From: Takashimella koratensis
Taxonomy: Eukaryota; Basidiomycota; Tremellomycetes; Trichosporonales; Tetragoniomycetaceae
Assembly (NCBI GenBank): GCA_003116875.1
Contig: BCKT01000008.1
Coordinates: 828,322 to 892,321, forward strand
Length of the DNA: 64,000 bases
Reading direction: 5' to 3'
The notes under the pieces are model-generated. The model was given only the letters and a program-made list of their open reading frames with translations. It was not told where the DNA came from and ran no database searches. Positions 29,053 through 48,714 of the stretch are shown one piece after another. Position 1 is the first letter of the stretch; each line of letters starts with the position of its first letter. The position numbers and the translations under genes are program-made.

Positions 29053-32000
29053 CTAGTAAACCTCGAGGACGTATCGCTCGTCCTCCTTCAACGCCTCGAT
29101 GTACTCCTCTGCCTCCTTTCGCTCCATCCCGGCCTCCTCCGTGAGCGAGCTGACGAGCGCCTCGAAAACATCGGGGACGGGCCACGTCGGTCCACAGAGG
29201 TAAAAGTATGCCGCGTCCTTGCCCTTGCCCGTCAACATCTTGGCGAGCATCTTCTTGTCCTGCTTCATCTTGTGCTGGATGTACACCTTGTCCTTGCCGT
29301 CACGCGAGAACGCGAGACCCGCGTGCGAGATGATACCCGAAGCGATGTAGGCCTCGATCTCCTCGCCGTAAAGGTACTCTTGCGAGCGGTATCGGGAACC
29401 AAAGTAGTAGATGAGAGGACCGACCTCGATGCCCTGAGACTGCTGCCAGGCGCGGTGCTGCATGAACGCGCGGAAGGGGGCCGCACCGGTACCGAGACCA
29501 GCCATGATGATCGGCTGGCGGTCATCGGGAGAGAGCTTCATGACGGAAGGCTTGATCGAGACGGTGACCTTGGCGCCAGGCTTGAGGTCGGCGAGGTAAC
29601 GCGTGCACTGACCGAAACGGGGCGAGCCTAAAGATAATCAGTACAGCTTCAGACAAAGCAGGCGAAAGTGACTCACCTTTCGAGTCAATCCAGTCCACAG
29701 TGACGATAAGCAGCTCGACCTTGTCGCCAACTGCCTTCTGACTCGAGGCGATGGAGTAGTGACGGGGCTTGATCTCGGGGATGAGACCAATGAGCTCCTC
29801 GATACTTGGTCGGGCGGTGCGGAATCGCTGGAGGACATCGGCGAAGGTGACGGTCTCGTTCTCCGCCATCTTCTTGAACAACTCGGCACCCTCGGGGGCA
29901 GAGATGAATTTGAGAGTCATCGCGTCCGCCTTGGTAGTTGCCAACTTGGCGAGTGCCGCGTAGAACGCCTTGCCCGGTCGACCGAACAGGTCGACGTTCT
30001 GCTGCAAGAGCTGGAAGATTGTGCGGGTCTCCATGGTACCTGGCTGGGTCGGGTTGGGGAACGAGACCAGCGCGTCGGCCTCGAGGCCGTACCATTTGCA
30101 GAAGTCAACAACCTCCTGAGTGTCGTTCCAGCCGTGGATACCGATAGCCTCGCCAATCTCGTACTTGAGACCAGTACCACTGGTGTCGAGCTCGAGGTGG
30201 AAGACGTTTCGGTCGTACGAAGCGGGAGTGAGACGGCGGTTCTCCGACACGGTGACGAGGAAGGTCTCGTCGGCGGTGCTGGGTCGGAGAGCCTTGATAC
30301 CGGGTCCATCAACCTCGGCGTCGACGGTCTTGGCGTCGGGGACCGCGAACGCCTCGCGGAAGAAGACGTGGCGAGCCGCGAGTTCCCACGAGGTAAGGAC
30401 AGCCTTCTCCTCCGTGTCGAGATTGATGAGACCAGCCTCGCCGGGGAGGGCATCCCACGACCACGCCTCCTTAGCGGCCTTGGTCAAACCCTCGGCGTCA
30501 ACCTCCCACTCGGCAACGTCCGCTTGCGGGATTTCGCTGAGCGCGGCCTGGGCGTCCTCGACCTCGTCTCGACCAAGCTGGTTGCAGTAGAACGCGTCGA
30601 GAACCTTCCAGACACCCTGAGGAAGACGCTGGTTGCCGGTGTAGAGCAAGAGGAACGCGACTTCCTGACGGATAGGGTTGAGAGGCGAGCTCGAGTCGAG
30701 GTCGAGAAGGAAAACGCGGAGCTGCTTCTCCTTGATCGTCTGAATCTCACGGGCAGAGAGCTTAACGGAAACCTCGGACTCAAGCCAGGGGAGGTCAAGA
30801 ACGACAATAGCGCCTTGCTTGGCGGAGGCGAAGACGTCGACCGACTTGTGAATGTTGGCGTCGGAGACCCAAACAACATCGCTCTCAGTCGCAGGAGTGA
30901 TCGGGGCGACCGATCCCGATGCGATGGAGAGGACGGAGAGAACACCGCGAGCAGAGGACGAGCCGTACTGGGCGAGGTCAGTGGTGACGTTGGGCGAGGA
31001 GAGGAAGAGGTGGGCAAGGAGCTGGGGCAAGGGGGACAGGGGAGCGGTGAAGAAGGAGATCGTCTTCCCGTTGGCGGAGGCAGCGGGGGTGGGCGAGGGG
31101 TTGACAGATGTCTTGATGATAGGGAAAGCCGACGAGCTGCTGGACTGGGGGGCAGAGAAAAGGGCCGCGAGGACGAGAGCCTTGAGAGCCTCGGCGTCGG
31201 CGCGGGTCGGGCCAGTAACGTGGACAGTCTTCTTGCCGCCCTTGGTCAAGGCAGCGAGGAGCGCCTCGGGAGACGGCGAGAGGGTGTTGAGGATAACGTG
31301 GGGCTTGCCAGTGAGGGAAGAAGCGGCGTGCGACGCAACAGCGAGATAGAGCTCAGATGCAGAGTCGTCACTGACGGTGAAATCGTCGATCGAGCCTGAC
31401 GAAGGGAAGGTGAACGAGGTGGTTTGGCGGCCCGAGTAGGTAGTCTCGACGACGTGGATGAACTTGCCCTGGGTGCCGTAGAGCTGAGCACTGGAGGCGA
31501 CAATGTCCGAGCCAGAGGAGAAGACGACGGTCCAGTCCTCGGGAAGAGCGGTGAGCGCCTTGAGAACGCCTGGGGAAGCGAGGGCGTCGGAAAGCTCGAG
31601 CGAGGCGGAGGGCTCAGTCGAGGCAAGGTGGATCACGACGTTGCCCTGGATAGCGGAGAGGTGAGGGGCGAGGAACGGGAGGGTCGAGGTACTGGCGAAG
31701 ACGGAGATCTTGCCGGTCCCAGCCTTCTTGGCGAAACCGGCGAGCTCAAGACCAGCGCCCTCGCGGGTCTGGACCGAGTGGACTTTGCCGAGAGTACCAT
31801 TGGCGCCCTGGGCGTCCCAAGCAGCAACCTTGGCGCCAAAGCCAACCTGAACAGCGTCGTCGTACACCCAAACGGCAGAGGACGACTGAATAGCGAGGGC
31901 CTCGAGAACCTCGATCGCGGAGCCAAAGACAGTCGCGCCTGCCTTGGTGGTAGGGACGGGCTGGGACGAAGCGATCAAGTTGGTGAGATAGCCACTGTCG

Positions 32001-32245
32001 GTCGGGGACGGGATGACGCTAGGGAGGTTGGCGTCAACAACGGATTCCGGGGTGGCCTTGGAGATGGGGCTCTTGGAGTTGTCGCCGCCAAACTCGGAGA
32101 CGGCGGTGCTGGTCGCGCTGTAAGGGGTGGACGTGCCATCGGCATCGAGGTTGATGCCCTGGTTTTTGTTGGTGGCGAGGGAGGCCTTGGTGGCGGGGAC
32201 GCCAGGCGGGGAGGTGAAGGCGGTGGTGATGGCGACGGGAGCCAT
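29053..32245 (-). CDS. MET10: Sulfite reductase [NADPH] flavoprotein subunit
   Basis: This subunit moves electrons from NADPH through FAD and FMN to the haemoprotein that reduces sulfite to sulfide, for Met and Cys synthesis. The N-terminal ~450 residues have the pyruvate-oxidoreductase-like fold typical of fungal Met10. A linker with FYCNQLGRDEVEDAQ leads to the ferredoxin-reductase part: NVFHLELDTSGTGLKYEIGE, GLIPEIKPRHYSIASS for FAD, IMAGLGTGAAPFRAFMQ and YFYLCGPTWPVPDVFEALV for NADPH, and the terminal aromatic ERYVLEVY. A single intron of about 50 bp (near 29627-29676) interrupts 3.1 kb, far fewer than neighbours. Codons end in C very often, which suggests high expression. Length and domain order are normal. 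Confidence 0.95.
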
Positions 32246-32468
32246 GGTGAGCGGAGGGGTGGGGGTGATGGAGAGGTGAGAGGAGGAAGAGGGAGAGGGT
32301 GGGGGGAGTTATACACAGGGGAGGGGGGGCCGGAGACGTGGATGAAGAGGTGAGAGATGGGGATGACCAAGGTATCCTCCCAAAAAAAAAAGCGAAGGTG
32401 TGATTCCGGTGGATGTTCCAGATTTCCCCACATCACCCCAGAATTACCCCACTTTTTTCCGAATTCGC

Positions 32469-32474
32469 CACGTG
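32469..32474. promoter_or_regulatory. CACGTG box upstream of MET10
   Basis: A palindromic CACGTG lies 224 bp before the MET10 ATG. In yeast the Cbf1 bHLH factor binds such boxes at sulfur-assimilation genes. A similar use here is inference. Confidence 0.4.
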
Positions 32475-32815
32475 GGATCCCTCTCCAACCGATGGCGTGA
32501 TTGGTGCAAACTCTGCTCCCAGCCTGGTCCCAAGTGGCGACCGGGCCGATGCCGATGACGCGACAGCCGAGGCAGCAGGATGAAACATGGAGGAAACAGA
32601 GCGAAGGCTACCTGCTTGACGGTTGATCCGGAGACGGTGTTAGTCGAGGACCGCCCAGAGAGAAGCGGCTCCTACAGCCAGCTTAGTATCTCTCGTTTCC
32701 CGCTTACGTGACTCCACAGCTACTGCTTTGTCCTCGGTGGAAGCCCAATATTCAAACCGATAGTCGAAAGCTTACGCCACGAAACTGCAGCTCACAAGCA
32801 CCATTGGGCGATGCA

Positions 32816-32822
32816 TATATAA
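32816..32822 (+). promoter_or_regulatory. TATA box of array member 0
   Basis: TATATAA lies 67 bp before the first following ATG (32889). Confidence 0.35.
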
Positions 32823-32888
32823 TTCACCCTACATTCACCTTGTTGCATACTCTTGACCACCGTGCGCTCATCGACTACGCATCTGTCA

Positions 32889-33206
32889 ATGTTGTTGACA
32901 AACTTGACGACCTCATCTTCAACATCAATGACTACTTTATTCACCATTTTTAGGGCCTCAACTTTCATCCCGGATGTCAGTAGCTTGACCATCGCTTGGC
33001 TGCCACCAGAGTCGAAGTGGACCACTCTCGCCGAGACTATGCATAAAAGCGTCATTGACGAAATCAGGAGTATTGATGCAGACGGAGCAGACGTTCTGCA
33101 AGATGCTTGGGACACTCTGCATACCTCTCTACAAAGGCCAAACTGGTCGGGTGACAAGGGCAGTGACGCGCTGGAATGTATCACGGCTTCTACCAGTTTA
33201 CGGTAG
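32889..33206 (+). CDS. Divergent array gene 0 (degenerate?)
   Basis: The first ATG after a TATA box opens a 105-codon frame. Its middle, SLTIAWLPPESKWTTLAETM followed by an SIDADGAD stretch, resembles the W-L-P core and following helix of the island's gene family. It then diverges. A short frame with family-like intron signals (33212-33331) follows in another phase, so this may be a frameshifted or decayed first copy. A minus-strand frame of 169 codons covers the same DNA, so the strand is not certain. Confidence 0.35.
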   Translation: MLLTNLTTSSSTSMTTLFTIFRASTFIPDVSSLTIAWLPPESKWTTLAETMHKSVIDEIRSIDADGADVLQDAWDTLHTSLQRPNWSGDKGSDALECITASTSLR

Positions 33207-33211
33207 AACAT

Positions 33212-33423
33212 ATGCCCGCCACCGACGAGCACTTCGATAGTAAGAGTCGAGAAGCTGCGATTAGTTGCTTGAAGCTTTGCACAGCTCTTCTCGTCAAACA
33301 TGCCCCCTCTGTCATGTCAATATTGGAGTGAGTTGAGTCTGCAGTTGTCGGCTTGAATGCGGACTGACGCGTTGTAATTAGTGGGCGACAATCAATCGCC
33401 AAGCGTGGAGTCAGATCGCAGTG
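33212..33423 (+). pseudogene. Array fragment, repeated at 37895
   Basis: A 38-codon frame starting MPATDEHFDSKSREAAISCL closely matches MPVTDEEFNSKSQEDAVSCL at 37895. A GTGAGT donor (33328, phase 2) and a CTGACG...TTAG acceptor ending 33381 fit the intron seen in the family, giving a short second exon to 33423. It is probably the 3' part of array gene 0, out of frame with it. Confidence 0.4.
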
Positions 33424-34066
33424 AAGAGCGACGCGGGACATGGACATAGCTGCTAGGTCGTGTAGACTCGCAACCAGTGTTGAGTATCGGAAACTTGAGC
33501 AGATGTGACTGCAAGGGCAATGCCTCGCCGTGTAGTTCGTCGAATCACCGACCATCTTGACTCATGAGTTCGACACGCACTGTGGTCGTCCCCTCCTCGC
33601 CCAGCCCTCGGGTTGCTCTCGCGCACACAAAGTGGACGAAGATGAAGCCACACTACTAGAAGGATCACCTTAGACTTGACCCAGCTCCCAATCCGGGGGC
33701 TCTTTCCTCTCACGTTGTGTAGAGGCGTTTACAGTACGGGACGCCTGGGGAGCATTCCTTTGACAATATACACCGATTCAAGTCTCCAAACGGTTTCACA
33801 GTCCTCAATCAAAAGAAACGCGACAAACAAAGGCTGTAACATATGCGTGCAGCGCAAGCGTTGCATTTGAAATCATCCTTTCTAGAGGCGGATAGCCTTG
33901 CATTTAACTCCGACCAGCTCTCACTTGGGCGGCAAGCCTGGTGGACCCCCTCTCAGATAGATATAAGGCGGCGGTTCACATCCCCACGCTCCGCTCATTT
34001 TCGAGCAATATCTCTGCAACGTTTAGTAGCACAGCTAAAACATCACCGCGAGACGTATCTTTACCA
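33424..34066. other. Array spacer
   Basis: No gene is seen apart from the promoter of member 1 at its right end. Confidence 0.45.
33962..33967 (+). promoter_or_regulatory. TATA box of array member 1
   Basis: TATAAG, 100 bp before the ATG at 34067. Confidence 0.5.
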
Positions 34067-34576
34067 ATGGCAACCAACACAACTTCTGACACCTCCATCG
34101 AAAGGGAATGGACTGAAAGTGACATCCCGACGTGGCTTCCCACTGACCAGCGGGGACGCTCTGAGCTTGCATCAAAGCTCAATGCCTGCGGATGGGTCTT
34201 TGCGGTCACCGTGAATCCGGAATGGGAGTTGTTACCCACAGTATCCAATCAGTACCTGCTGGATTACTGTCTTCCCGAAGGTAATACTGTCACCCACACG
34301 CTTATGACGAAATTTGCAACTCTTGCCAAATCAGTTGGCGATGCCAAGGGGCTCGCAGAGCCTCACGGAATAGAGGTCATGGGCAAACTCGGGTGAGTGC
34401 AGTTGTGACTCATGCAGCACTTGAGGCGCTGACATCGACATTGCAGAACCGAAGAGAACAACACCCTCGTCCAAGCCGCTCTTCAAGGAAGGCTGTTCGC
34501 AGACTCGAAGAGAACGATACCCAGCAACCTTGTTGCCCTTGTGATGCCCACCCAGAACCCGGTCGAGAGTGTCTGA
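34067..34576 (+). CDS. Array gene 1, novel W-L-P-x-D family
   Basis: An unrecognised intracellular protein of about 152 residues with no signal peptide or membrane segment. Exon 1 has the family core DIPTWLPTDQRGRSELASKL, a helix, then LPEGNTVTHTLMTKFATLA. A 54-bp intron (34393-34446, CTGAC branch, phase 2) joins KLG to TEENNTLVQAALQGRLF. It ends NPVESV. No frame break is seen. Start chosen because it is the first ATG after the TATA box and because other members start at the same distance before the core. Confidence 0.65.
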
Positions 34577-35269
34577 TTGAGCGTTTGTGCTTCATAGTGA
34601 TGCATCAATTTTGACCTTGCTATATATGACAGGGGCATGATTAAGGCGTGCTCACCGACACCCCAAATCAGCATTGGCAAAGCTCACCTATCCAGGTGCG
34701 TTCTCCTTCTGGTCCGTCCACCTGGCATCTGCTTTCACACACATCACCAAGAGCTTTGAAAGGGGCAATAGCTCCTTGTCTATCGGTTATCCACCCCTCC
34801 CTCCTTGTATACCCTCCCCGGGCCCCTCCCGTTAGCCCACCCTTTCCTCATTCTCTCATCACGAAGCCGCTCTTCGATAGATGTACGGGTTTTCGACTTA
34901 CCACGGACTGAAGAGTCTAGAACTTTCCGAAGGCTTTATCATTCTCCCTCTCCCTCTCCTCCCTCTCTCTCTCTTTCTCTCTCTTTCTCTCTCTTTATCT
35001 CTCTTTCTCTCTCTTTCTCTCTCTTTCTCTCTCTTTCTCTCTCTTTCTCTCTCTTTCTCTCTCTTTCTCTCTCTTTCCCTCTTTCTGTCTCTCGTTCTCT
35101 CCTTTCAACGTATGGCATCCTTTCTCTGGGTAGCGCAGTTGCACCGAACAAGACATTCCTTTTGCTATTCGGGAGCATTTTTCACGCCCACATGTGGGGT
35201 GGCAAGATATATAAACCCGCCCCAACACTCACCGCTCTCATCCCGATTGTTCACCCACTTGAATCAGCA
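34577..35269. other. Array spacer with CT-rich repeat and orphan TATA
   Basis: Contains the 10-bp tandem repeat at 34971-35080 and a TATATAAA at 35208-35215. That TATA box now lies before an insertion but would be 54 bp from the member 2 ATG without it. Confidence 0.5.
34971..35080. repeat. CT-rich 10-bp tandem repeat
   Basis: About 11 copies of a CTCTTTCTCT unit; one copy has an A in place of C near 34997. Pure pyrimidine on the plus strand. Confidence 0.9.
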
Positions 35270-35585
35270 CTGCTTTGTCAGGTATGGCGTCTGAGGACGC
35301 CTGAAGTGGTCCGAGCGCTCCCGAAGTACCTGGGATGCCGAGAGGGGACCGAGCGGGGTGGCGCAGGCCGAGGTCACGGAGAACAATAAGACCACTAGTA
35401 GAGGCTATGCAGCGCTGCGGCGCACGGGCCCACGAGCGGCTGCGGCCGCGCAGAACAACGGGGATGCATGAACGACGCGCGAGCGGTCAAGGCCGACCTA
35501 GTGCACTTAAATAGCAGCCCGTAGCGTCGAGAGATGAATCCCCAACCCGTTGAAACCTAACAGCTTTTTTCGTATTGCCTGACTC
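35270..35585. mobile_element. Possible small insertion (solo-LTR or MITE-like)
   Basis: A ~316 bp GC-rich segment is flanked by a 7-bp direct repeat ATCAGCA (35263-35269 and 35586-35592), as a target-site duplication would be. Near its ends are the inverted hexamers GTCAGG (35277-35282) and CCTGAC (35578-35583). It has its own TTAAATAG at 35508-35515. Taking it out would bring the TATATAAA at 35208 to the normal family distance from the member 2 ATG. No coding region is inside. Class is unresolved. Confidence 0.45.
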
Positions 35586-35591
35586 ATCAGC

Positions 35592-36076
35592 ATGTCTTCA
35601 ACAATCGCCGACAACACGACGAGTACCAGTTCCATTCCTGATTGGCTGATGACGGACGAGGAAGGACGCACAATCCTTTCCAATCTCCTGTTTGAGTCCG
35701 CTCTTGAATTGGCGAAGACCATCGACCCTACTTACCGATCGATGCATCCCACCCGTGCACCTCATGCCACTTTGCCTGAAGGAGACTCGGGCTTGCACAG
35801 GGCGATGGAGAAATTCCGTCAGCTCGGCTCAGACGTCTTGAACGCAGACAATGAAGACGCCCAGAAGAGACTGAAGTAAGTTGATCAGCCTATGCAATGT
35901 GTCGATTATATCGCAAGATCCTGTTGCTGATCTGTCATATTATCATGGACAGCACCCCCGAAAACGATACTTTCGGAAGAGCCGGTAGGGAGAGTCGCAT
36001 TTTCAGCGAAAACGACAACAAGACGCTTCGCTCTGATCTTCTTGCTCACGTGCAGACATCCATCAATCCCATTTGA
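35592..36076 (+). CDS. Array gene 2, novel W-L-P-x-D family
   Basis: About 136 residues. Core SIPDWLMTDEEGRTILSNLL, then ALELAKTIDPTYRSM and LPEGDSGLHRAMEKFRQLG. The phase-2 intron (35876-35952) joins KRL to NTPENDTFGRAGRESR, and the protein ends AHVQTSINPI. Intact frame. Its start codon overlaps the right copy of a 7-bp direct repeat that flanks the insertion upstream, so its promoter may now be supplied by that insertion. Confidence 0.62.
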
Positions 36077-36826
36077 TTGTGGGGGACCACTTGATGACGA
36101 CTCTGCGTCGTCCATGAAGTGATTCACTTATGAGGGACGAGCGAGAGGCGGAGATGAAAGAACGAGGAACAAGAAGATGAGATAGTCAGAGAAGGACGAT
36201 TCTTGCATTGAGATTGGTCAACTATCCGTGCTTTGTTGATTTGTAAAGCCACTCCTTCACCTGTTCACAAGCTTCGCTGCCATGCCAAATGGCGGTGGGA
36301 GTCCTATCAAACCCACGCCGGATATTTGTCCGTACAGTCGGCATGCTTCACTTTACACTTCTCGAAGTCCCACTCTCGTCGCTCGTCGTAACCACTATCA
36401 CGATGCCGACAGCTGTCTAGTGGCTACCAACTAATGCAGTGTAACGCCTTCTATAGTGGAAAACCCTCCCTTCCTCCCACCCCCCTTTCTCTGCTTCCCC
36501 GAAACAAGACATGTACAAAGCCCTCGCCCCCCCTGCTATTTCCTTTGAACATGAACAAACTTGGTGGAGCTCACCGGCTTCAAAGGAGAGTAGAGCCTCG
36601 GCCCAACCGAGGGCAAGAGGAGCTGTCCTGCCACGTTCCTCCTTTTAGACAGTGGAGCCAGTGCACTGAGCACGACATTGAATGCTCGTTTTTGGGGGAC
36701 TTTTTGAAAGCCCGCATGGAAAGTGGTAAGCTATAAGCAGTGGAACGGACTTCCCCTCTCCTTCCCTGCTGTTTCTCCACCCACTACTGAAAACACTCTT
36801 TCACAACAAACAACGAGCTCTTTACG
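36077..36826. other. Array spacer
   Basis: No gene is seen. A short C6 run lies near 36480 and the promoter of member 3 at the right end. Confidence 0.4.
36732..36737 (+). promoter_or_regulatory. TATA box of array member 3
   Basis: TATAAG, 90 bp before the ATG at 36827. Confidence 0.5.
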
Positions 36827-37379
36827 ATGGATCGCACAGCCCAATCCGACTCGAACGTCGATCCCCCGAATCACACCCCTCTGACGACGGGGCCTCCGAG
36901 CTTCAGTCCGGCCCGGAATGGCTCCCCACCGATCCCAAGGCGCGCGTTGAGCTTGGAAGGACAGTTCTCCTGTACGCCTTCTTCACTGCCAGTCAATTCT
37001 TCGAGAATTTCCATCCAACGTCTCTGGATGACCGGCTCCCCCTCGACGATTCGATGCCATGGGCGATGCCCGTGAGGAACATGGAATTTCTCGGTGACCA
37101 AATCATGGACACTGACAGTGCGAGAGCCCAGATCCCGGAGTAAGTGTACCGAGTCAAGCGGTAAGACTTCTTCTCCTTGACACACTGCAACCGCCGTCAG
37201 CTGATCAGCACTCTGTTTTCAGCACGCTGGGAAACCGAATGCACGTCAATTCGGCTCTCACTCATGCAAAGAATGGCTCCTTGGCGGACCTCAAGAAGCG
37301 TCTGTTTTCCAAAGGACAACGGTCCACTTGGCGCAAGGGACCTCTTTCACGCCTTGAAAGTTTTTTCCGGGATGTCTGA
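36827..37379 (+). pseudogene. Array gene 3, frameshifted
   Basis: The only ATG after the TATA box opens one frame, but the family core (SGPEWLPTDPKARVELGRTV, from about 36907) is in another frame. The break lies between the start and the core, and a CCCCC run near 36863 is a likely site for a one-base loss. Downstream all is normal: the helix, a phase-2 GTAAGT intron ending at about 37222, and a second exon starting TLGNRMHVNSALTHAKNGSL and ending SFFRDV. It is either a recent pseudogene or a sequencing error in the C run. Confidence 0.55.
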
Positions 37380-37750
37380 TGTGGGCGAGGAGGAGCTGGA
37401 GGCTCCATGACATTCGAGAATGATGTTGGGGAGATCAACGATGCGAGACATGGGTGATACTGCTTGACATGCATGAGAAAGGTGAATTGACTTTCGAGAG
37501 TGGTGATTTGATTTTGTCAACGAGAGTACATAATTCTCCCTTAATATCATCGAAAAAGAGGTACAACGGAAGCTGCTAAGAGAAGGAGAAAGGGTATTCT
37601 TTGTCCATTCAAACGCCATATCACGTCTTTGGACGGTGTTGACCCTGGAATCCTACCTTCAGATGCCCGCTTCTCATCTCCGGCTAGCCTAGTCCGCCTA
37701 CAAGTGCAATCACTACTCCGCTTGATCCCGACTGCGAAAAAACTTCGCCT
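37380..37750. other. Array spacer
   Basis: No plus-strand gene. The stretch near 37590-37640 resembles DNA near 41390-41430 by eye, which hints at duplicated spacers. Confidence 0.3.
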
Positions 37751-38038
37751 TTGAAGACTGTGTACAGACCTGCAAAACCCGTAAATCCTCTTTCTCAAAG
37801 CCTCGAAGAGCCGCCACAATTGATTGGTAATTTGGCAATCAACGCTATCGCCTGTGAGCTATTTATCCTACATTGTGTTATTACGGACAAAAATATGCCC
37901 GTCACCGACGAGGAGTTCAACAGCAAGAGTCAAGAAGATGCGGTTAGTTGCTTGGCACTTTGCACGGCGCTCCTCGACAGGACATGCGAACCCTGTTATG
38001 CCAGCTATCATGTGAGTTTCACTTTGTTCAGCTTCTGA
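37751..38038 (+). pseudogene. Array fragment, partner of 33212
   Basis: A 95-codon frame; from 37895 it reads MPVTDEEFNSKSQEDAVSCL, closely matching the fragment at 33212. It lacks a W-L-P core and a TATA box at the usual place. Likely a decayed duplicate. Confidence 0.35.
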
Positions 38039-38343
38039 GAGTGCAATAAAGTGGGCTCAGAAGTTCACCGGGGGGCCGCAGTTGGTGGACAAGTATTCGG
38101 TATCCCCGACTGGAAGTACAGAGCTGAGTCGCTGACTGCATGACGCCGCTGGTTTTCGTCCCGTACGGTATCTGTTTGAAGGATTGGACATTGTTGCGGG
38201 TACGGCTTGACAGTACCAACACAGCTCGCCTTGCTCCCTTGTGTTGACTACACAGCCAAAACTCCAGTTTTCTCAGGAGCTGACCCAAGACCTCGGACCC
38301 GCTTGTCTTGGAAAAAGGAAGGTAAACCAGCTTACCCTCCGAT

Positions 38344-38344
<1 letters not shown>

Positions 38345-38390
<46 letters not shown>
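38345..38390. repeat. Poly-C (46) tract
   Basis: Uninterrupted C run about 340 bp before the member 4 ATG. Confidence 0.9.
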
Positions 38391-38644
38391 ATACGGTGCT
38401 GGCTTGTTCTTTTGAAAACGGTATTTGGTATGAATCCTGCGCTGTCAAGCCTCCCACAAATAACTCCTTTCGATCGGCGATATTTTTGTCTCCGGAATGG
38501 CAGCGATCAAGGCAAAGGAAAGCGGACAGACATCGCCCCGTGAGGCAGTCTAGTAATTCCTTTCTTTCGTTGACAGCGCAGAGGTTTACTTCCGACATAG
38601 TTCGGCTGACACCCAATGGGCATGTTTGCTTGTGTGGCGAAAGT

Positions 38645-38652
38645 ATAAATAC
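38645..38652 (+). promoter_or_regulatory. TATA box of array member 4
   Basis: TATAAATA, 76 bp before the ATG at 38728. Confidence 0.55.
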
Positions 38653-38727
38653 CGAGCTCTCTTTCCTCTTCCCCCTCATCCCTAACACTTTGCGCAACAG
38701 ACTACCATAGCTACCAGTCTATCTTCG

Positions 38728-39228
38728 ATGGGATATAACACAGAGATTGTCAAGGTCTTCAAACCACCGTCAGCCCCAAACACATCCACCATCCCTGAGT
38801 GGCTCCCCTCGACTGATGCGGAGCGCAAAGAACTGGCCTGGTCCGTCCGCAAAACTGCTTTTGAGTTGGCGGAAAGGATTGACCCTACGTTTGTTGATCG
38901 GAATGACTTGAACTTTTTCGACGACCCCGAAAATCGAAAAAGTCTCGGGACCATATTTCCAATTGGCAGTTCCGTTTCGCACACTTTGATGCGTCTATAT
39001 GATCAGCTCAGCTGTGGTATCATGTACGCCGACGATGAGGCCAGTAAGAAAAGTCTCAAGTGAGTAGTTTTTCTCCCTGGAACGTCGTCAAGAACGAAAC
39101 GCTGACATCTATGCATTAGCACCAATAACAACTTAATCCTCATTCGGGCTGTTTTGAACCGGCAAGTGCCCACAGATCCTGAGGTACTACTTCCCACTGA
39201 GATCACAGAGATTGCGCAGTCCTATTAA
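38728..39228 (+). CDS. Array gene 4, novel W-L-P-x-D family
   Basis: About 146 residues. Core TIPEWLPSTDAERKELAWSV, helix TAFELAERIDPTFVDR, then a segment VSHTLMRLYDQLS and YADDEASKKSLN. The 60-bp intron (39060-39119, CTGAC branch) is phase 2. Exon 2 reads NTNNNLILIRAVLNRQV and ends TEIAQSY. Frame intact, with no signal peptide or transmembrane segment. Function unknown. Confidence 0.65.
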
Positions 39229-39485
39229 GTCAGAGTCAGATGTGAGGGTATGCTGCTTCTGCCCCTGAAGCTTATGCATCGAAGTTTATGCATCGAAGTT
39301 GATTATTTTGCTCGATCCTTATATTATTTCCCCAGTGGGAAGATAATTTACCACTGAGCCCTTTGATGGGCAACAAAACTTTCCTTCCAGCCTCTATGGT
39401 TGGCGAACCTCGCCTTTTGTTACTAACGGCTCAAATAGCGTCCTTGTCATTCAGCGTCCAGCCATGCCTCCGAGAGCCCGCTTCA

Positions 39486-39486
<1 letters not shown>

Positions 39487-39552
<66 letters not shown>

Positions 39553-39580
39553 TCCCCCCCCCCCCCCCCCCCCCCCCCCC

Positions 39581-39610
<30 letters not shown>
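39487..39610. repeat. Interrupted poly-C tract with 30-bp spacing
   Basis: 124 bases almost all C. The interruptions are T at 39521, T at 39551 and 39553, and G at 39581, and the tract ends with T at 39611, so the breaks repeat every 30 bp. Confidence 0.9.
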
Positions 39611-39613
<3 letters not shown>

Positions 39614-40048
39614 TCTCTCCCTATTTGAGTCACACTCCCACGCTTGGATCCCCCGACTCTCCGACAGGTTTGTCAACGACCAAGGAGGGAAGCGAACAGC
39701 GGTACCACCCGACAGTGCTGCTGATTGGCAGAGCGAAAGGTTATACGTTTGGCGGTTGAGAGTCGTTGACTTGCTGACTAACGATTGGAATGTACAAGTA
39801 ACGTGCGCCATTGTCTCTGGTAGTAGGTCTGGGTTATTTTGTTTGATCCTTTGTCTGTACAGTCTGCTCCCAGCTGACTCATGCCACTCTCCGCTTGGCA
39901 CACCTTTCCCTCGGAGTTTTTGGTCTTGACAAAAGATCGACAAAGGAGGGCCAGCTAGCTCCTCCGCTAGTGCAGTATCCCACCACTGAAACCGACGTTG
40001 TCTGCGCTTTCCGGGGATAAGTGGATGTCCACCCCAGAATTGGTGAAC

Positions 40049-40054
40049 TATAAG
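40049..40054 (+). promoter_or_regulatory. TATA box of array member 5
   Basis: TATAAG, 92 bp before the ATG at 40146. Confidence 0.5.
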
Positions 40055-40145
40055 GGTGAAGTAGAGCACAGTCCTGCTCTCACTGCGTTTCTCTTTCTGC
40101 TCTATCCGAAACCCTCTTCGCAGTATATCACGCACACCCACCACA

Positions 40146-40683
40146 ATGAAGCTCGCCACCGAACCAGACACGACCCATACCAATGCAGCTCAACCGGACA
40201 CATCGGTCGTTAGCGAGTCGTCTTCCATCCCGGATTGGCTCCCGACCGACTTTGAAGGGCGCTCTGACCTTGCGAAGACGGTTCGGAAATATGCCTTCCT
40301 CATGGCCAGGTCGGTGGATCTAAATTTCAAGCCGACAGATCTTAGCCTTGCTGTCCAAGTCCCCCAGGGGGTCACTGGTGCCCACAAGTTTGTGCAGAGC
40401 ATCGACTATCTCAGCTTCGACATCATGTACGCTGATGAGGTTACCGCTCAGTCTCAACTCAAGTAGGTTCATCCGCTTACCTCCACTCTACTACTTCCAT
40501 GGGAGACTCTACCTGACGGGCTGCGCCCCGAATACCTTCAGCTCTCCGGCGAACGCCGCACTGGTTGAAGCTGCCCTCCTTACAGCCCAGAACGGATCAT
40601 TGCGCACCGTGGAGGAGGGACTTTCAGGCGCTAAGACTCCTCCCAGCATGCGGGAGCCCGGCGACAACGCCGAGAGAAGTTGA
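40146..40683 (+). CDS. Array gene 5, novel W-L-P-x-D family
   Basis: About 152 residues. Core SIPDWLPTDFEGRSDLAKTV, helix YAFLMARSVDLNFKP, then VPQGVTGAHKFVQSIDYLSF and YADEVTAQSQLN. The intron starts GTAGGT (about 40465), weaker than in its sisters, and ends at about 40540 with TTCAG; phase 2. Exon 2 reads NSPANAALVEAALLTAQNGS and ends DNAERS. Frame intact. Confidence 0.65.
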
Positions 40684-41628
40684 GATTCTCTGGTGGTCCT
40701 TTCTTGTCAGAGCTGAGTGGAAGGACACTGCGAGGAGGTGAGCTGCGACATACATGAGCATGATGATTTGAATAGTGTACCTGCGTAAGTCCGATATGAT
40801 GTCCTACACAGAGCTGTCCATGCATTTGACTTGCAACCGCAAACTATTGCTCGGTCCATCAACGAGCATCCTTCACCTTCATGTCGGCATAGAGTGAGGT
40901 ACTGTTTGCAAAGATTGGCGCAGTAAGCGATCACGGTCTCTCATCCCTTTTCACACCAAACTCGGCGCGGTTTGGAGTCATATTCGATATTCTCAGCCCG
41001 CAGGCATTCAAACTCACAAGACGATCAAGGGCGTGTTCCTGTGTACTGTGCATGATGATAGGCGTTAATCGTGCCTAAACCCATTGCAGTTCATTGAGGG
41101 CAAGGGTGCCTCGATGTGACACTCCTTCCGGCTCTCCGGCCTGAGACTTGCCTATAAGTACAGCAGTTCCACTGCCTCTCTCTTACGTCTCCGTCTGTCC
41201 TTCGCAATCAACTATTGAAAAAAAACTCTTATGTTCAGACAGAAACGTCGCGGTATGAGATAACCAGAGCTGGCAGGACTCGAGACGGCAGAGGCTGCTC
41301 ATTCCTTTTGAGCCGAAGATCTCGGTGATGTTTCATCATGCCAAGTATCGGCTGTGGCAACGCCCGGCGCAAGTGGAGGAAATAGCCCATTCTTTTCAGC
41401 GTTCAACGTCATTTCAAGTGCACGACGCGCATGTAGCAATGATGAGTCTCTTTTGACTAGCTCAACCGCTGGCAGATGAAAGGATCCGTCGGCCCTTTTT
41501 CGGCAGCAAAATGTTTGCTTGCACAGCCTTGCGAGACTTTCCCCCACACTCCCACTCTCCTCACTCCTCTATATATGACCATGCTCTAGCTGGATTGCAG
41601 ATACTAAACACCCATCCACAGCTTCTCG
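40684..41628. other. Array spacer with a relic gene start
   Basis: A TATAAG at 41153-41158 is followed 73 bp later by an ATG (41231) whose frame stops after ten codons. This looks like the leftover promoter and start of a lost member. A minus-strand frame of 82 codons (41299-41547) shows no known motif. Confidence 0.4.
41570..41577 (+). promoter_or_regulatory. TATA box of array member 6
   Basis: TATATATG, 52 bp before the ATG at 41629. Confidence 0.5.
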
Positions 41629-42171
41629 GTGATCATGACATCGACCCGAGACCACGTATCGACGTTCGCCACAAGCCCACCCAGCACTGATGGCCCGCCT
41701 AGCTGGCTCCCCGCAGATCGTCAGAGACGTCTAGACCTGGTTGTCGGCGCCCAAGTCTCTGCTTATCTCATAGCCTTAGAATCCGATGAGACTCGGAAAG
41801 ACTCTCTCCTCGCTCAAATCGGAAGTCTGAGCCAGGAGTCGGCAGGCGAACTGAATCTGAAAGCTTTAGATCTAGGTACCTTGCCCAAGGGGACCACCGA
41901 CGCTGAACGTTTGATCGGAATGTTCATGAACTTCAGCCAGAAGGTCCTGTACGCTAACAGCCTCGAAGGCAGAGTGTCTTTGAAGTGAGTGCGCGATTGG
42001 GACGTATGAAGTGGGTTCGACCGCTCATGTTTTGAAGTTTTCAGCACCGAGAGCAATGCAACGCTCGCCGCCGTTGCTTTCTCTCGACATGTCTATGAAG
42101 GTGGTAGGTTGATAAAACCGCTGCTTGATCTGATTCAGTCCTCTCAAGGCAACAATCCGAATAAAGGCTAG
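41629..42171 (+). CDS. Array gene 6, novel W-L-P-x-D family
   Basis: About 162 residues. Core GPPSWLPADRQRRLDLVVGA; the middle has an extra stretch (ETRKDSLLAQIGSLSQES) not seen in sisters, then LPKGTTDAERLIGMFMNFSQ. The phase-2 intron starts at about 41985 and ends at 42045 (TTTTCAG). Exon 2 reads NTESNATLAAVAFSRHVYEG and ends NNPNKG. A second in-frame ATG lies at 41635. Confidence 0.62.
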
Positions 42172-42790
42172 CCTCCCTTCTTCAACGCTAAGTTACTAGT
42201 GAGATACACGATTAGCTACCTCCACGACTACTTTAGGCATTGCAAAGCTATGTTATGACGCGCTGTCTCGTTCTGACGATTTTGGGTTATCGCAGAATTG
42301 CTCCTACCTGCGGGTAGTTCCTTACTGTCTGGCTTAGTCTACGCTGCGCTATGACGAGCATGTACTGTATGTCCACCTACTGGAACTCGAAGGGGAGAGC
42401 ATGCCGCTATCTTTCTAGCTGTCTACACCTTTGATGGCTAACAGTATCGGTGGTATATGACGACCTCAGTATTTTTCACTATGCAAAGGAGTGAGCGCTG
42501 TGAGCACCATCAGCAGAGCGACAAAACACATACTTGCAGTATGTCCCTTCCATTCAGGTGGTGAGCGGGCGCAATCGATCTTTGAAATCCTTTATCTAGT
42601 TCAGCTTTGGACAACTGAAAGGAATACTCGGGGCTTTCTTCATCTCAGTGATGGCTGTACAGATGTCATTGCCCTCCCCTCCAAAAACCAGAAAGTGCGC
42701 TGTTTCCATATAATGTCTCGTTCACTTGTCGAGTTTGCTCTATTCTTCCCCAATTCTCGCTCACACACAAACAGACCCACACATCTCAAT
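42172..42790. other. Array spacer
   Basis: No gene is seen besides the member 7 promoter. The open frame from 42491 is continuous with member 7 but starts before its TATA box. Confidence 0.4.
42709..42714 (+). promoter_or_regulatory. TATA-like box of array member 7
   Basis: TATAAT, 77 bp before the ATG at 42791. Confidence 0.4.
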
Positions 42791-43314
42791 ATGGATTTGA
42801 AAGACATTCTTAATCCTACCTCCCAAATCAGTACCCGTGGCACTCTACAATGGCCCTCTACGAACGAGGATTATAAGGAAGTGGCCATTCGTGCGATGCT
42901 TGCTTGCTATCAGCTACAATTTTATATCTTAGAGGGAAAGGACAATCAGAGCAGAGACAGAGCAGGACTCTCGGAAGGAACAGCCTCTGACCAGAACAAG
43001 TTCGAGGCTGCCAAAAAGCTGGTTGAGAGGTTGCAGAAGTTTAGCTTGGCTCTTGAGTCTGCCGACACGGCAGAAAAGAGGATAGCTTTGCAGTGAGTGC
43101 AGTACAGTACCTTAGCCGTATAGCGCACGCAACGCTGGTGCTCAGCTTTTTTTCGTCCAGGACCGAGGATAACATGACGCTTATCGAGCTGGCTTATTCT
43201 CGGAGCTTCTTTGAAAGAGGAACCCGCAATATCCGAAAGGATCTCCTCGATCTTCTCCAGCGTTCCGGCGTTGATATTGACACCAAGACGGAAGATGTCA
43301 AATCAAGAGAGTGA
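42791..43314 (+). CDS. Array gene 7, divergent W-P family member
   Basis: About 152 residues. The core is altered to TLQWPSTNEDYKEVAIRAM, so the W-L-P-x-D signature is partly lost. The helix is followed by LSEGTASDQNKFEAAKKLVE and SADTAEKRIALQ. The phase-2 intron (about 43095-43161) ends in TCGTCCAG. Exon 2, TEDNMTLIELAYSRSFFERG, matches the family pattern well and ends VKSRE. Frame intact; the most divergent intact short member. Confidence 0.58.
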
Positions 43315-43762
43315 AGGATTCCGATTGATCAATGTTGGAGCGAATCGACAGCGCCTAAACCACTCTCCATATCAGTAGTCGTAGCTGCAGCCAGCCATGC
43401 GTATGCACATAAAACTCATTCCGCTTACCTACATGATACTATCGTGAGAGACAGCGCGGGTGAGGACAGCAATTTGTATACCTGAGCAGGTTGCTCTCTC
43501 TCTCACTCTCTCTCTCCTTACCTTTCGCATTAAATGTCATTCAGTGCAGCTTGTCCAGAAGCTCATCACCACTATCCCGCTGGAGCGCTGCAAGAGTCTA
43601 TCCGTCAATACACTGCATTGTGCCAACAGTGGTGAAAGGTTGACTCTTTTCTATACCACGTCCGACCGACCAGTCCAGACCACACCTCCTTTCAACAAAT
43701 TATTTCTGGCAAAGATAACGGCTTGTGTGATACATGTCTGGGGAAAGCAGTCCTTTAAATGT

Positions 43763-43777
43763 CCCCCCCCCCCCCCC
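43763..43777. repeat. Poly-C (15) tract
   Basis: A C run 51 bp before the gap and about 380 bp before the member 8 ATG. Confidence 0.9.
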
Positions 43778-43828
43778 TCATGCCCCTCTCCCTCGCCCCA
43801 ATCACGCGGCATGAGAGGAGGTCCTCTT

Positions 43829-43996
43829 NNNNNNNNNNNNNNNNNNNNNNNNNNNNNNNNNNNNNNNNNNNNNNNNNNNNNNNNNNNNNNNNNNNNNNNN
43901 NNNNNNNNNNNNNNNNNNNNNNNNNNNNNNNNNNNNNNNNNNNNNNNNNNNNNNNNNNNNNNNNNNNNNNNNNNNNNNNNNNNNNNNNNNNNNNNN
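43829..43996. other. Assembly gap (168 N)
   Basis: Unknown sequence between a C-rich left flank and a T8 run. Open frames drawn through it are not meaningful. Confidence 0.99.
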
Positions 43997-44152
43997 CTTT
44001 TTTTTTCGATAATGGTTGGTTTGTTCTAAAGTGAACTCCGGGAACAATTAAAGGGCGGGCGCTGGTTTGGGACACTCGACTCCTCTCCCCAATTCCACAG
44101 AAAACATCGACTCCCTCAAATCATTCGAGCCTCACATTCTACTTTCTTCAAC

Positions 44153-44701
44153 ATGCATGTCCCTTCGGTCATTGCTCTCCTCATTAACAGGTCCAACATC
44201 AACACTCCTCTCCTTTCGTTCAACAGCAGGTCCGATCACCCTCCGTTGCCACCCGGATGCGGTGCCAACGAGCTCTTTAAACTGGACACATCAGCGCTCA
44301 AACACAACCGCAAACGAATAGGAGGAAACCTTGCCACTGCGGCGTTTGGCATTGCTCATCATCTGGATCCCAACCTCCGACAGACCCTCCGCACTACTGA
44401 ATATCTGTCCGACCCGAATCTTTCGATGCGACGTACGGTCCGATCCCCTGAAGGTGATACTCGGGGGGGCAAGCTCGTCACCGATCGAACCTCCTCGGGA
44501 GCTTGCTGAACGGAGAGGATGCCTACGCTGTCGACATGCGCTCCATCAGAGGGTAAGTGCCATCAACGCTTGGTACATACGGAGAGCTGATCAAAGTATT
44601 TTAGAAAACTGGAGTTTCTGGCCGAGAATGTGGAGGCCCTGCAGGATGACGTCGAGAGGTTTTGGAGAAAGGAAGAGAAGGAGGTGCGAGACGACACTTA
44701 G
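44153..44701 (+). pseudogene. Array gene 8, frameshifted and divergent
   Basis: The start at 44153 opens a frame with RIGGNLATAAFGIAHHLDP, matching the family helix, followed by SPEGDTRGG. The W-L-P core is not recognisable. After a G7 run at 44463-44469 the matching sequence (SNLLGSLLNGEDAYAVDMRS) is in another frame, so an indel is likely there. It rejoins family structure with a GTAAGT intron (about 44543-44603, phase 2) and exon 2 KLEFLAENVEALQDDVERFW ending EVRDDT. Probably broken, or a sequence error in the G run. Confidence 0.45.
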
Positions 44702-45313
44702 CTCATCCAAGCGCTCCGAGGCGTCCTCATATCATTTTAGGTGCACGTCCCGTGTGCGCCTTTCAATGCAGCTCCTCGGCGCGGCCTTAGCTATCCTCAC
44801 ATGCATTGGTGTAAACCGACGTTTTTTGACTGCCCTCAAGGGAGCTTGATTCAATCTAATTCAGAGTGTCCCAGATCGTCCCACTCCGGTGTCTTACAGC
44901 TCAAGGGAGCTGGCTACTGGATAGCCGGAGATAGAACAAAGGCAGGTGGACAAGCTCACCCGCGCATGCTCAGTGGTCCACATATAGCTTGGGCATCCTT
45001 TGAATACCGTGAGAAATTACGCTTTCTGCAATCAAGCTGGCTCTCCTGTTTTACTTGAAGTTCCGACATTGTGAATCTCTCGAGGGGACGCCCGGCTCTC
45101 CTTTTTCATCAGTGAAAAGCATGAGATCATCATCGGCCCTTAGTTAGTAAACTCTACATGGAAAGCCAGCAGGTGGTGTTTGCCACCCCTGTTCCCCACC
45201 CCGTATAAAGGCCAAAAGGACTTCTCACAAGCACCCCATCTCCCTTATTGGACGTTTTTTTTCCACCTAGGCCACTAAAGAGACATTTATACCAACACGA
45301 CACACTCACAGAC
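44702..45313. other. Array spacer
   Basis: No gene is seen. The right end holds the promoter of the first long member. Confidence 0.4.
45204..45210 (+). promoter_or_regulatory. TATA box of array member 9
   Basis: TATAAAG, 104 bp before the ATG at 45314. Confidence 0.55.
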
Positions 45314-45941
45314 ATGTCTGAACACCAACGCGAGACATCCAATGGCATCGGCCCTTGGACTAACATCATCGAGGCATTCTACAGAATGACCGGGTTTACT
45401 CTTAAGACTATTTCAGAGGACACGGCTACCTCCCACCCTGCCCCGTCTTGGTGGCCGGAAGACCTGCAACTACGCTCCAACGCCGCAAGTAAGCTCCTGT
45501 CTATCTCATTCCAGATCGCCAGCGAGATCAACCCCTCGTTCACCGAACGCGCCAGGACTTGGGCAGCCCAGGCTCATATTGACGGCAAGCTACCTTGCCA
45601 TCCACGTGAGTTGTTCCCCACAGTCGATGAGACAAGGTATCGAGACGATTCAGAGTACAAGAAGGATTACAAGCAGATGGTCGGTTCGTATGAGCTCAGT
45701 GATCATATCGCTATCAAGAATTTTGCCGGACTGGAGGAGTTCTCTCACAAGCAGTAAGTGTTCAGCCGTGCAGTCTCCTCGCTCCCCCTCACTCCCTTCC
45801 TCTATGTGTCCTGAGAAAATGGTTAACATGCCTTATCATGTTTACTCCAGCGGCGACCCCCGAACGTGGCTTGAATGGTGCTGGAATGTTGACGGCTGGC
45901 TCCCTGGAGGACCCGAGAACATGAGTATCACTGCGGATTGA
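45314..45941 (+). CDS. Array gene 9, long W-W-P-x-D subfamily
   Basis: About 177 residues, longer at the N-terminus than genes 1-8. Core PAPSWWPEDLQLRSNAASKL, then ISFQIASEINPSFTERA, a variable part, and a well-defined block YKQMVGSYELSDHIAIKNFA. A phase-2 intron starts at about 45756, and exon 2 gives GDPRTWLEWCWNVDGWLPGG ending MSITAD. The same core, intron phase and gene size place it with the others. It forms a close pair with the next gene. No signal peptide or known domain. Confidence 0.65.
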
Positions 45942-46457
45942 ACGATTACGGAGTTTAGCCCTAGTGATCTTTGTGCTTTGCCTTTTGAATCGTAGTCGAC
46001 GATGTCATGAATGGTGTGACTGCTTTTCGCTACCGGTACAGCCCGAGAGTGCTTTTAAGGAAAGAGGTCTTCGAAGCCCACGTGTGCCCGGACGAGGAGA
46101 TCTCACGGCCGGAGCTTGACATGTGCCCGACTTCCTCCTCGACTACTGTCAATACCTTCAAAGCTGGCCCTCCGTTGTCTTTAACCTGAGGGTACTCAGT
46201 TTGTACACACCGAGGGGAAAGAGAAACATTTAAGGTATTATCTCCGCCCAGTGCTTGGTACGCTTATCGGGCAAGTGGTATCGCTCCTTTCGGTCCGGTA
46301 GGTGATGTTGAACGACCGACAACCAGCCCGAGTTCACTCTGCATTTTGAAACGTGAGCGGTCGCGCCTTTGTCTTCGGTTAAAATATTGAAGCGCCGACG
46401 ACTTTGGCTCAGTCAGCACTGGGAGACACCATGTTAGGAGAGTATCTCGTGTCGGCA

Positions 46458-46491
<34 letters not shown>

Positions 46492-46590
46492 TTGCGGAGA
46501 GGTCAGACTGTCTCTCTCCAAGCGACAACATCTCCTTCCATCCATTTGCCCGCCCGTCATCCCGTCAGCATCAGACGATCAAACGTAAAC
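45942..46590. other. Array spacer with (TA)14
   Basis: No gene is seen. The TA repeat lies where other members have their TATA box. Confidence 0.45.
46461..46488. repeat. (TA)14 microsatellite in promoter
   Basis: 28 bases of alternating T and A, ending 103 bp before the ATG at 46591, in place of a normal TATA box. Confidence 0.9.
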
Positions 46591-47257
46591 ATGACCAACT
46601 ATGCGCTCAACCCCTCCATGACTGACGGCAGCTGGAGCGTTGACATCCTCGCTACACTCCTTGGCTGGCAGGGGAACAGATCCACTCTGGGGTCTATTCC
46701 AGAGGGAGCTTCAATCGACTCCGCTGACGAGGGTCCCCCTGACGGCCACCCAGCATGGTCTTGGTGGCCTGACGACAGGGATGAACGCAGCAAAATCGCA
46801 AGCTGATGTCCGTCGCCTTTCAAATCGCCAGTGAAATCGACACCGGTTTCGAAAACCGCGCCAAGTCCTGGTGGGCAGAGTCCGACCAGCAGGGGAAACT
46901 ATACGGTCCTCTTCTCGATCTGTTTCCGCAGGTCGATCCCACGAGGGGGGAGAGCGACCCAGAGTACAGGAAGGATTTCTCGGCCATGGCGGGTTCTTAC
47001 GAACTCAGCGATTACATAGCTACCAAGAACTTTGAAGGTCTGGAAGAATTCTCGGAACGCCAGTGAGTGATCGTGCGAAGAGCCTTTTTCTGGGTTTTCT
47101 TCTGTCCTGGATTGAGAGGGAACTGACGAGCCTCTTTCGCCTCTCACATTCAGCGGCAATCAGCAATCCGGAGAAGTGGATCGAGTGGATCAAGCTTCCG
47201 GAAGTCAAGGGATGGATGCCAGGTGGACCGGAGGGAACAAGTATCCTAGCAGACTGA
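46591..47257 (+). pseudogene. Array gene 10, long subfamily, frameshifted
   Basis: A close sister of gene 9. It starts in one frame with PAWSWWPDDRDERSKIAS and stops at 46804, then continues in another frame with MSVAFQIASEIDTGFENRAK and YELSDYIATKNFEGLEEF. At the break gene 9 codes for ASKLL, and here the DNA looks like a GCAAGCAAG sequence that lost one GCAA, a 4-bp slippage deletion. The intron (donor near 47065, acceptor AATCAG near 47171) and exon 2 (NPEKWIEWIKLPEVKGWMPG, ending SILAD) are intact. The damage seems recent. Confidence 0.6.
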
Positions 47258-47445
47258 ACCGTTATGTACCGCCCCTCAGCACCGAGCATGAATCTCATAC
47301 TTACCAATCGCAAAAGATTTGCGCATAACATCTGATAGATCAAGTATGAGTGGTTCCACGCCATTAGTAACAGTACAACTTGAGATTGAAATGACCCAAA
47401 TCCAAATCACTACCCCGTGCTACGATTGAAGCTGCAGCGAGCCGC
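47258..47445. other. Convergent end of array and USP gene
   Basis: Short space between the last array gene and the USP stop. This marks the right edge of the island. Confidence 0.5.
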
Positions 47446-48714
47446 CTAGTCGTCGCGGGAGTAATCACCCGAGAGACGCTCTCGACTACGCTCTCTGCTC
47501 CGGCTCCTGACCAAGGTTATATCACCCGGTGCAACGAGGGCCGCGTATTGTCCGCGTTTGGGGTCGGCTTGGCGCTTCTCGAGTGTTTTCTTGACTTTGC
47601 GTTCGGGGCGGACGACGATGACGGGGACGGGGGAGTGAGAGACGGCGTAACGCGAGACAGAGCCCATGCCAGGTGCTAAGGTATGTCAGCAGTGGCCGAA
47701 GGGCGCAGAGAGAGGGAGAAGGTTGGACGGAGACGTACCACCGAATGCCTTGGACCAGGATTGAAGACGAGATCGCTGGCCTTTGGTTCCGACGACCAGA
47801 GCTAGAGAAGGTCAGCAAAGTTCATGCCAAGCAGATATTGACAAGATCCTTCTATCATAGTACTTACAGTCTGGGCGGTAGAGCGCGATCATCTTGAGGA
47901 TCATATCGGTGATCCGGCCAACAACAAACTCGACAATGACGGAGATCTTAGTTGGTTGGTCAGCATGGGCATGAAAACGGAGCCGGCAGTGATGGACATG
48001 CCTTTCGGTTATCCTCCTCGTTGTTCTTGTTGAGGATGGTAGTGAGCAGTTCTTGTGCATCTTCCTTGAGCTCATCCTGAGCCTTCATCGATGATTTCTC
48101 TGCTCAGTGTCAGCTTAGGTTCGCTATAGAACGGGGAGCTAAGATCTCACCATCATCGGCGAGCTCGATCACCCGTAGAGCAACGACTTCGTCCCCATCC
48201 TCGACGAGCTCGGACATGAGCCAGTCGAGGGCGTCTTCACCCGATTCGTCAGGCGAGACGGCGACGAGGAAGACACGTGTGTTTCTGGACCGCTTGTACC
48301 CTTCACTCTTGGCCTAGCAGTGTGTCCTTGGTCAGCGCTCACACTCATATTCCATCCCAGTCACGCGACCCGACTTACCTGGCAAGTGAACGCAAACAAC
48401 GTCGCGGGTCCAGCTTCAAACGCCTCGAATCCTACTTTTCGGCGATACTTTCCATCCACGCTCGAGTTTGTCAATGTCCTTGGCATGTGGCCCGATCCGG
48501 ACGAGTTGGGTGTCATTGCGCCCGACGAGGGGTCCGAGTGGAGCATGACGCGTGATGAGGACATGGCGGAGAGTAAGAGAGGTGCGGTGGGCGGGGAGAG
48601 GCTGTCTGGAGCCGCGGTGCCGGTGCCGCTGGAGGTGGCGGTGTGGTGTAGAGATGGAGTGGAAGAGCCGGGAGAGGAGACGGATTTCTTGAGTGCTGGG
48701 CGGATGGAAGTCAT
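47446..48714 (-). CDS. Universal stress protein (UspA) domain protein
   Basis: The start at 48714 opens a Ser/Thr/Pro-rich N-terminal region of about 90 residues, followed by a UspA fold: NTRVFLVAVSPDESGEDALD as first strand, ELVEDGDEVVALRVIEL, VEFVVGRITDMILKMIALY, and the nucleotide-loop region LVVGTKGQRSRLQSWSK with GSVSRYAVSHSPVPVIVVRP. The C-terminus is basic and Arg/Ser-rich (RSRSRERSRERLSGD). Such fungal USP proteins have a variable N-terminus and unknown exact function; ATP binding is inferred from the loop, which here has G-T-K-G-x7-S in place of the usual G-x2-G-x9-G-S. Introns split it about five times. Confidence 0.88.

Follow-up and report, generated by a model that had tools for sequence, protein, structure and literature searches.

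We analysed the window, a 64,000-nucleotide stretch of contig 8 of Takashimella koratensis (genome 25.1 Mb in 24 contigs), and found a head-to-tail array of two-exon genes on the plus strand at 34067-47257 (Table 1), as a preliminary description of this DNA had proposed. Nine supported family members make up the array (g1-g7, g9 and g10). The figure of at least ten genes given earlier is reduced to these nine; two further units, g0 and g8, are doubtful. MET10 and ERO1 lie to the left, and to the right lies a gene whose tail weakly resembles Usp, followed by the gene for THO subunit 1. Of the flanks named in the preliminary description, MET10 is clear (FAD_binding_1, E 2.6e-52; NAD_binding_1, E 4.2e-7), whereas the Usp match, at 18.3 bits, falls below the Pfam cut-off of 24. 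Between g7 and g8, 168 consecutive N (43829-43996) mark an assembly gap or a withheld stretch, so a promoter or a unit may be hidden there. Two intergenic spacers hold long C homopolymers (38345-38390 and 39487-39610), of a kind common genome-wide. Also within the array are two copies of a short ORF (33198-33296 and 37881-37979; MPxTDExFxSKS...SCLxLCTALL) that are 80% alike, with 4, 5 and 7 differences at the three codon positions over 28 codons; they are not assignable to the array family and are perhaps relics.

We modelled the genes with two exons, picking donor and acceptor pairs by likeness among members, and for g10 selecting the acceptor by resemblance to g9. Seven models are intact (g1, g2, g4, g5, g6, g7 and g9) and encode 135-176 aa. 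The nine modelled introns (g1-g7, g9 and g10) all read GT...AG, are 54-101 nt long and, in the models chosen, are all in phase 2, which bears out the conserved gene structure described previously; a CTRAY branch-like site is present in six of them. Reading frames are broken once each in g3, where the ATG at 36827 is out of frame with the WLPTD part and the break falls in the N-terminal part, and in g10. Either break could reflect decay or a sequencing slip.

Table 1 Features of the array, in window positions.
Feature	Position	Exons and introns	Strand	Remarks
g0, doubtful unit	32889..33206		+	ORF with IAWLPPESKWTTLAE; profile E 17, not significant; TATA at -73
g1, intact	34067..34576	exons 34067-34392, 34447-34576	+	
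TATA element of g2	35208..35215		+	384 nt upstream of ATG; 97 nt without the LTR
Solo LTR	35276..35562		+	287 bp (TGTCAGG...CCTAACA); between TATA and ATG of g2
g2, intact	35592..36076	exons 35592-35875, 35953-36076	+	core WLMTD
g3, broken	36827..37379	exon 1 to 37139, exon 2 37223-37379	+	
g4, intact	38728..39228	exons 38728-39059, 39120-39228	+	
g5, intact	40146..40683	exons 40146-40462, 40542-40683	+	
g6, intact	41635..42171	exons 41635-41984, 42045-42171	+	
g7, intact	42791..43314	exons 42791-43092, 43161-43314	+	divergent (W-P without L)
g8, doubtful degenerate unit	44153..44509		+	no WLP core; profile E 0.17 and 0.34, not significant; no TATA found
g9, intact	45314..45941	exons 45314-45753, 45851-45941	+	divergent subfamily (SWWPED)
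g10, g9 paralogue	46591..47257	intron 47063-47163, exon 2 47164-47257	+	frame break near 46806

The relatedness of the members was examined by profile and sequence searches. An exon-1 profile containing neither the correct g3 row nor any g9 row was run against six-frame pieces of the whole window and recovered both genes (g3, E 1.1e-7; g9, E 7.4e-6). Scores against the profile were 33.9 bits for g7, with a best shuffle of 6.4 (464 of 500 shuffles reported), and 21.2 bits for g9, with a shuffle maximum of 3.7 (368 shuffles reported). Pieces of g10 were not significant against the same profile (4.2 and 0.4 bits, with the second exon mis-set); g10 aligns with g9 at 54% identity (E 4.1e-25). Neither g8 nor g0 reached significance. 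Searching the genome with g5 returned g5 itself and g2, g3, g4 and g1 (E 5.2e-9 to 0.00135), with no further hits; g4 found g5, g2 and weakly g1, g9 found g10 and weakly g1, and g7 found itself alone. We conclude from these sequence comparisons that the nine units are one paralogous family, with homology beyond chance, in keeping with the local family proposed earlier. The tryptophan-proline core ascribed to all members holds for most of them: the Trp is invariant in all eight aligned rows and the Leu-Pro that follows it varies (WLM in g2, which reads W-L-M-T-D, WP in g7, WWP in g9), and g8 has no such core. Similarly, the second exon begins T/S-x-x-N in all seven of g1-g7, and the full T/S-x-x-N-x-x-L-x-x-A motif given for it occurs in three of these (g1, g4 and g5). 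It is absent from g9, whose exon 2 has no detectable homology to that of other members.

We found no copies outside the array in the organism's own genome with g5, g4, g9 and g7 as protein queries; distant copies could be missed, since g7 matched only itself and g5 missed g6, g7 and g9. A motif pattern had nine matches in the genome, four of them in the array, and its reversed control had six. The five matches outside lie in pieces scoring at most 10.1 bits, even though the pieces had been selected by the motif, and they look like chance. Seven members were scanned, and at most one of them matched any given family in Pfam (whose listing mostly filters out weak matches above about E 0.1), NCBIfam, PADLOC or PHROG. 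The best match among PDB sequences was a designed bundle (E 0.091), and no relatives emerged among 5.8 billion proteins. The preliminary claim that the genes match no known family is supported in these collections. The absence of relatives is weak evidence, as the searches miss some array members and the protein set holds no close kin: MET10 has at least 67 relatives there at 54-65% identity among the matches listed, scored within the 7995 candidates with most common words, and those named belong to Kwoniella, Cryptococcus, Dioszegia, Kockovaella, Cutaneotrichosporon, Vanrija, Saitozyma, Tremella and Trichosporon and include a Tremellales. On these relatives the fungus would fall in or close to the Tremellomycetes.

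These searches bear on whether the array is a branch of some known family that has diverged rapidly and lies beyond sequence search, such as the N-terminal region of a homeodomain partner or another helical domain. Such a branch could go unseen, because only short helices are recognisable and the protein search relies on common 5-residue words, and g2 alone comes near HEPN_AbiU2 (E 0.094). Against it, no Pfam, NCBIfam or PADLOC family was shared by more than one member and no PDB sequence fell below E 0.09, and we regard this origin as quite unlikely. Membership of the HEPN (AbiU2-like) family itself was rejected: one member in seven matched, at 12.6 bits against a Pfam cut-off of 26.8. We also found no description of the family in the literature searched. 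The family is undescribed in the databases and literature searched and was seen at one locus only, copies as distant as g7 being out of reach of these searches. As a set of apparently lineage-specific tandem paralogues at one locus, it is of a known kind. Lineage-specific tandem orphan families of fungi form a kind rather than a homology group, and the array shares with them paralogues at a single locus, the lack of a known domain and a mixture of intact and broken copies. It differs from them in the apparent age of its copies, each of which seems to be under constraint, and in the well-placed TATA element that nearly every copy has.

We next consider the proteins, whose hydropathy, charge and signal peptides were assessed by simple scales rather than dedicated predictors. 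Eight members (g3 as a piece) showed no strong hydrophobic stretch, the highest 19-residue hydropathy mean being 1.07, and all eight carry a net charge of -2 to -9. No start resembling a signal peptide was seen in the seven intact models, in which the N-terminal 8-residue hydropathy mean reached at most 0.80; on these scales the proteins show neither signal peptides nor membrane spans, as had been stated, and a secreted effector or surface protein was rejected on the former count. A structure model of g4 exon 1 had a mean pLDDT of 73.2 and a block mean of 85 at the WLP segment, with helices at 30-51 and 83-99 and short helices at 67-70 and 104-109; its confidence is middling, having been built from an 8-row alignment with exon 2 absent. 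The model gave no significant fold match, a result that carries little weight because the query is a small helical piece. The proteins are small and acidic, probably intracellular and predicted to be mostly helical.

The preliminary description had read the great divergence among members as diversifying selection or birth and death and had proposed computing dN/dS. We found pN below pS in each of the 15 pairs whose alignment spans 60 codons or more, including the best pair, g9/g10 (0.28 against 0.74). The same held for 35 of the 36 exon-1 pairs; g2-g7 departed from it, over an alignment of 18 codons that is no better than chance, so that no excess of nonsynonymous change over the gene was found; alignment by protein score favours low pN. 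Diversifying selection is therefore not borne out by the long pairs, and as synonymous sites have reached or come close to saturation, old or site-specific episodes of positive selection fall outside the comparison. Neighbouring genes are the most similar (Mantel rho -0.56, p 0.004, nine members), which points to old stepwise tandem duplication; the members include no young pair, and hence nothing suggests that rapid turnover is still under way. Birth-and-death evolution, also invoked earlier, stands in a mild sense only, with g3 and g10 broken, g8 degenerate and a solo LTR before g2. Judged from these sequences, the copies look old, to have diverged without homogenisation and to be mostly under purifying selection, with a few (g3, g10 and g8) decaying.

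This pattern also bears on the suggestion that the array is a conflict or allorecognition locus, that is, a set of polymorphic recognition or killer-type genes under balancing or diversifying selection. Tandem, diverged paralogues with broken members and no known family would suit such a locus; the excess of synonymous change in every long pair and the lack of a young pair speak against it. Allorecognition proteins of the HET/NLR type have a HET, NACHT, NB-ARC or lectin domain, and Pfam listed none of these in the seven members scanned. The wtf genes of fission yeast are likewise multi-copy, with some copies broken and LTR sequence nearby, as here, and killers of this type have several membrane spans and act by killing or biased transmission in meiosis. 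The array differs from them in that its proteins show no stretch resembling a membrane span, and in having neither a young copy pair nor a sign of diversifying selection. Neither HET, NLR nor membrane features turned up, and PADLOC gave no match; the proposed link to conflict or allorecognition gained no positive evidence, and we hold it to be very unlikely.

The units share a promoter element. Ten of the 11 units have a TATA element at 63-130 nt upstream of the ATG, counting g2 with its LTR left out and g10 by way of an AT microsatellite; g8 has none in this distance window. The chance expectation was a mean of 0.33 under a Markov model, with a maximum of 3 in 2000 resamplings. At the same distance the element was found in none of six other long ORFs of the window, a small set that excludes MET10 and everything within 32000-47500 and in which some ORFs may be non-genes or start elsewhere than the ATG used, and at 6 of 174 other ATGs within the array. 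Motif (widened from a first scan) and distance window were chosen after the sites had been seen, and the controls were run with the widened motif and the identical window; a narrower motif retains 9 of 11 units, losing g7. Despite this post hoc choice, the gap between array units and controls is wide. Since nearly all units have the element in common, the duplicated unit seems to include the core promoter.

In g2, a solo LTR separates the TATA element from the ATG, and without it their distance is inside the family range. Matches to this LTR number at least 41 genome-wide, including its own copy and one short partial piece (40 of 83 candidates scored); the nearest other copy scored, on contig 5, is 99% identical. 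Six other copies were viewed by eye, three with 5-bp target duplications (L022, L024 and L026) and three without, and the flanks of the g2 copy have only GCTT common to both sides. Farther upstream of g2, at 34942-35086, lies a long CT microsatellite that shows a periodicity of about 10 nt. The LTR in the g2 leader, together with broken g3 and g10 and degenerate g8, would fit an old, declining family of mostly non-functional or weakly expressed copies. Seven intact two-exon models, the TATA elements in nearly all units and codon-level constraint in pairs with near-saturated synonymous sites argue otherwise, and we consider a locus composed mostly of relics unlikely.

On balance, we lean modestly towards a locus for acidic helical proteins of 135-176 aa, small and probably intracellular, that arose by stepwise tandem duplication of a promoter-gene unit, is constrained with a few members decaying, and encodes TATA-inducible, partner-binding bundles. 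The duplicated unit would run from the TATA core promoter and the leader through both exons and the phase-2 intron between them, and the family would have grown by its stepwise local duplication. In the proteins, the IPxWLPTDxxxR segment may cap the first helix, which with the second (LPxGxxxxHxLM...YAD) and an exon-2 helix would make up a small, partner-binding bundle; such a bundle, in which the Trp segment would be the fixed face, is weakly indicated. Copies may then differ in partner or timing through their N-terminal tail and mid loop, both of which are variable.

The TATA promoters would make for inducible genes, with stress or development as the probable trigger, by analogy with ascomycete yeast rather than from the basidiomycete lineage. 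PMC3553024 describes TATA genes of S. cerevisiae as highly regulated and stress-responsive, and yeast duplicates with TATA promoters as regulated and stress-responsive, and PMC3296765 reports faster expression divergence for TATA genes. The array resembles the duplicates treated in PMC3553024 in consisting of duplicates with TATA promoters, and differs in being a single family that occupies one locus in a basidiomycete, for which induction is predicted. To this extent the shared elements lend only indirect support to the link with stress suggested previously. A bolder version, in which a new fungal family with its own fold forms a one-locus bank of helical proteins, each specific to its partner and separately induced from a TATA promoter that nearly every unit has, for self/non-self or stress signalling, is a long shot.

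The family was matched by nothing searched, and its whole duplication unit, promoter included, is legible at one locus. The array suggests that wide divergence among tandem copies need not imply an arms race, and the pattern here looks like age together with constraint. Should co-induction of its genes hold, the array would lend itself well to studying the joint divergence of promoter and protein after tandem duplication.
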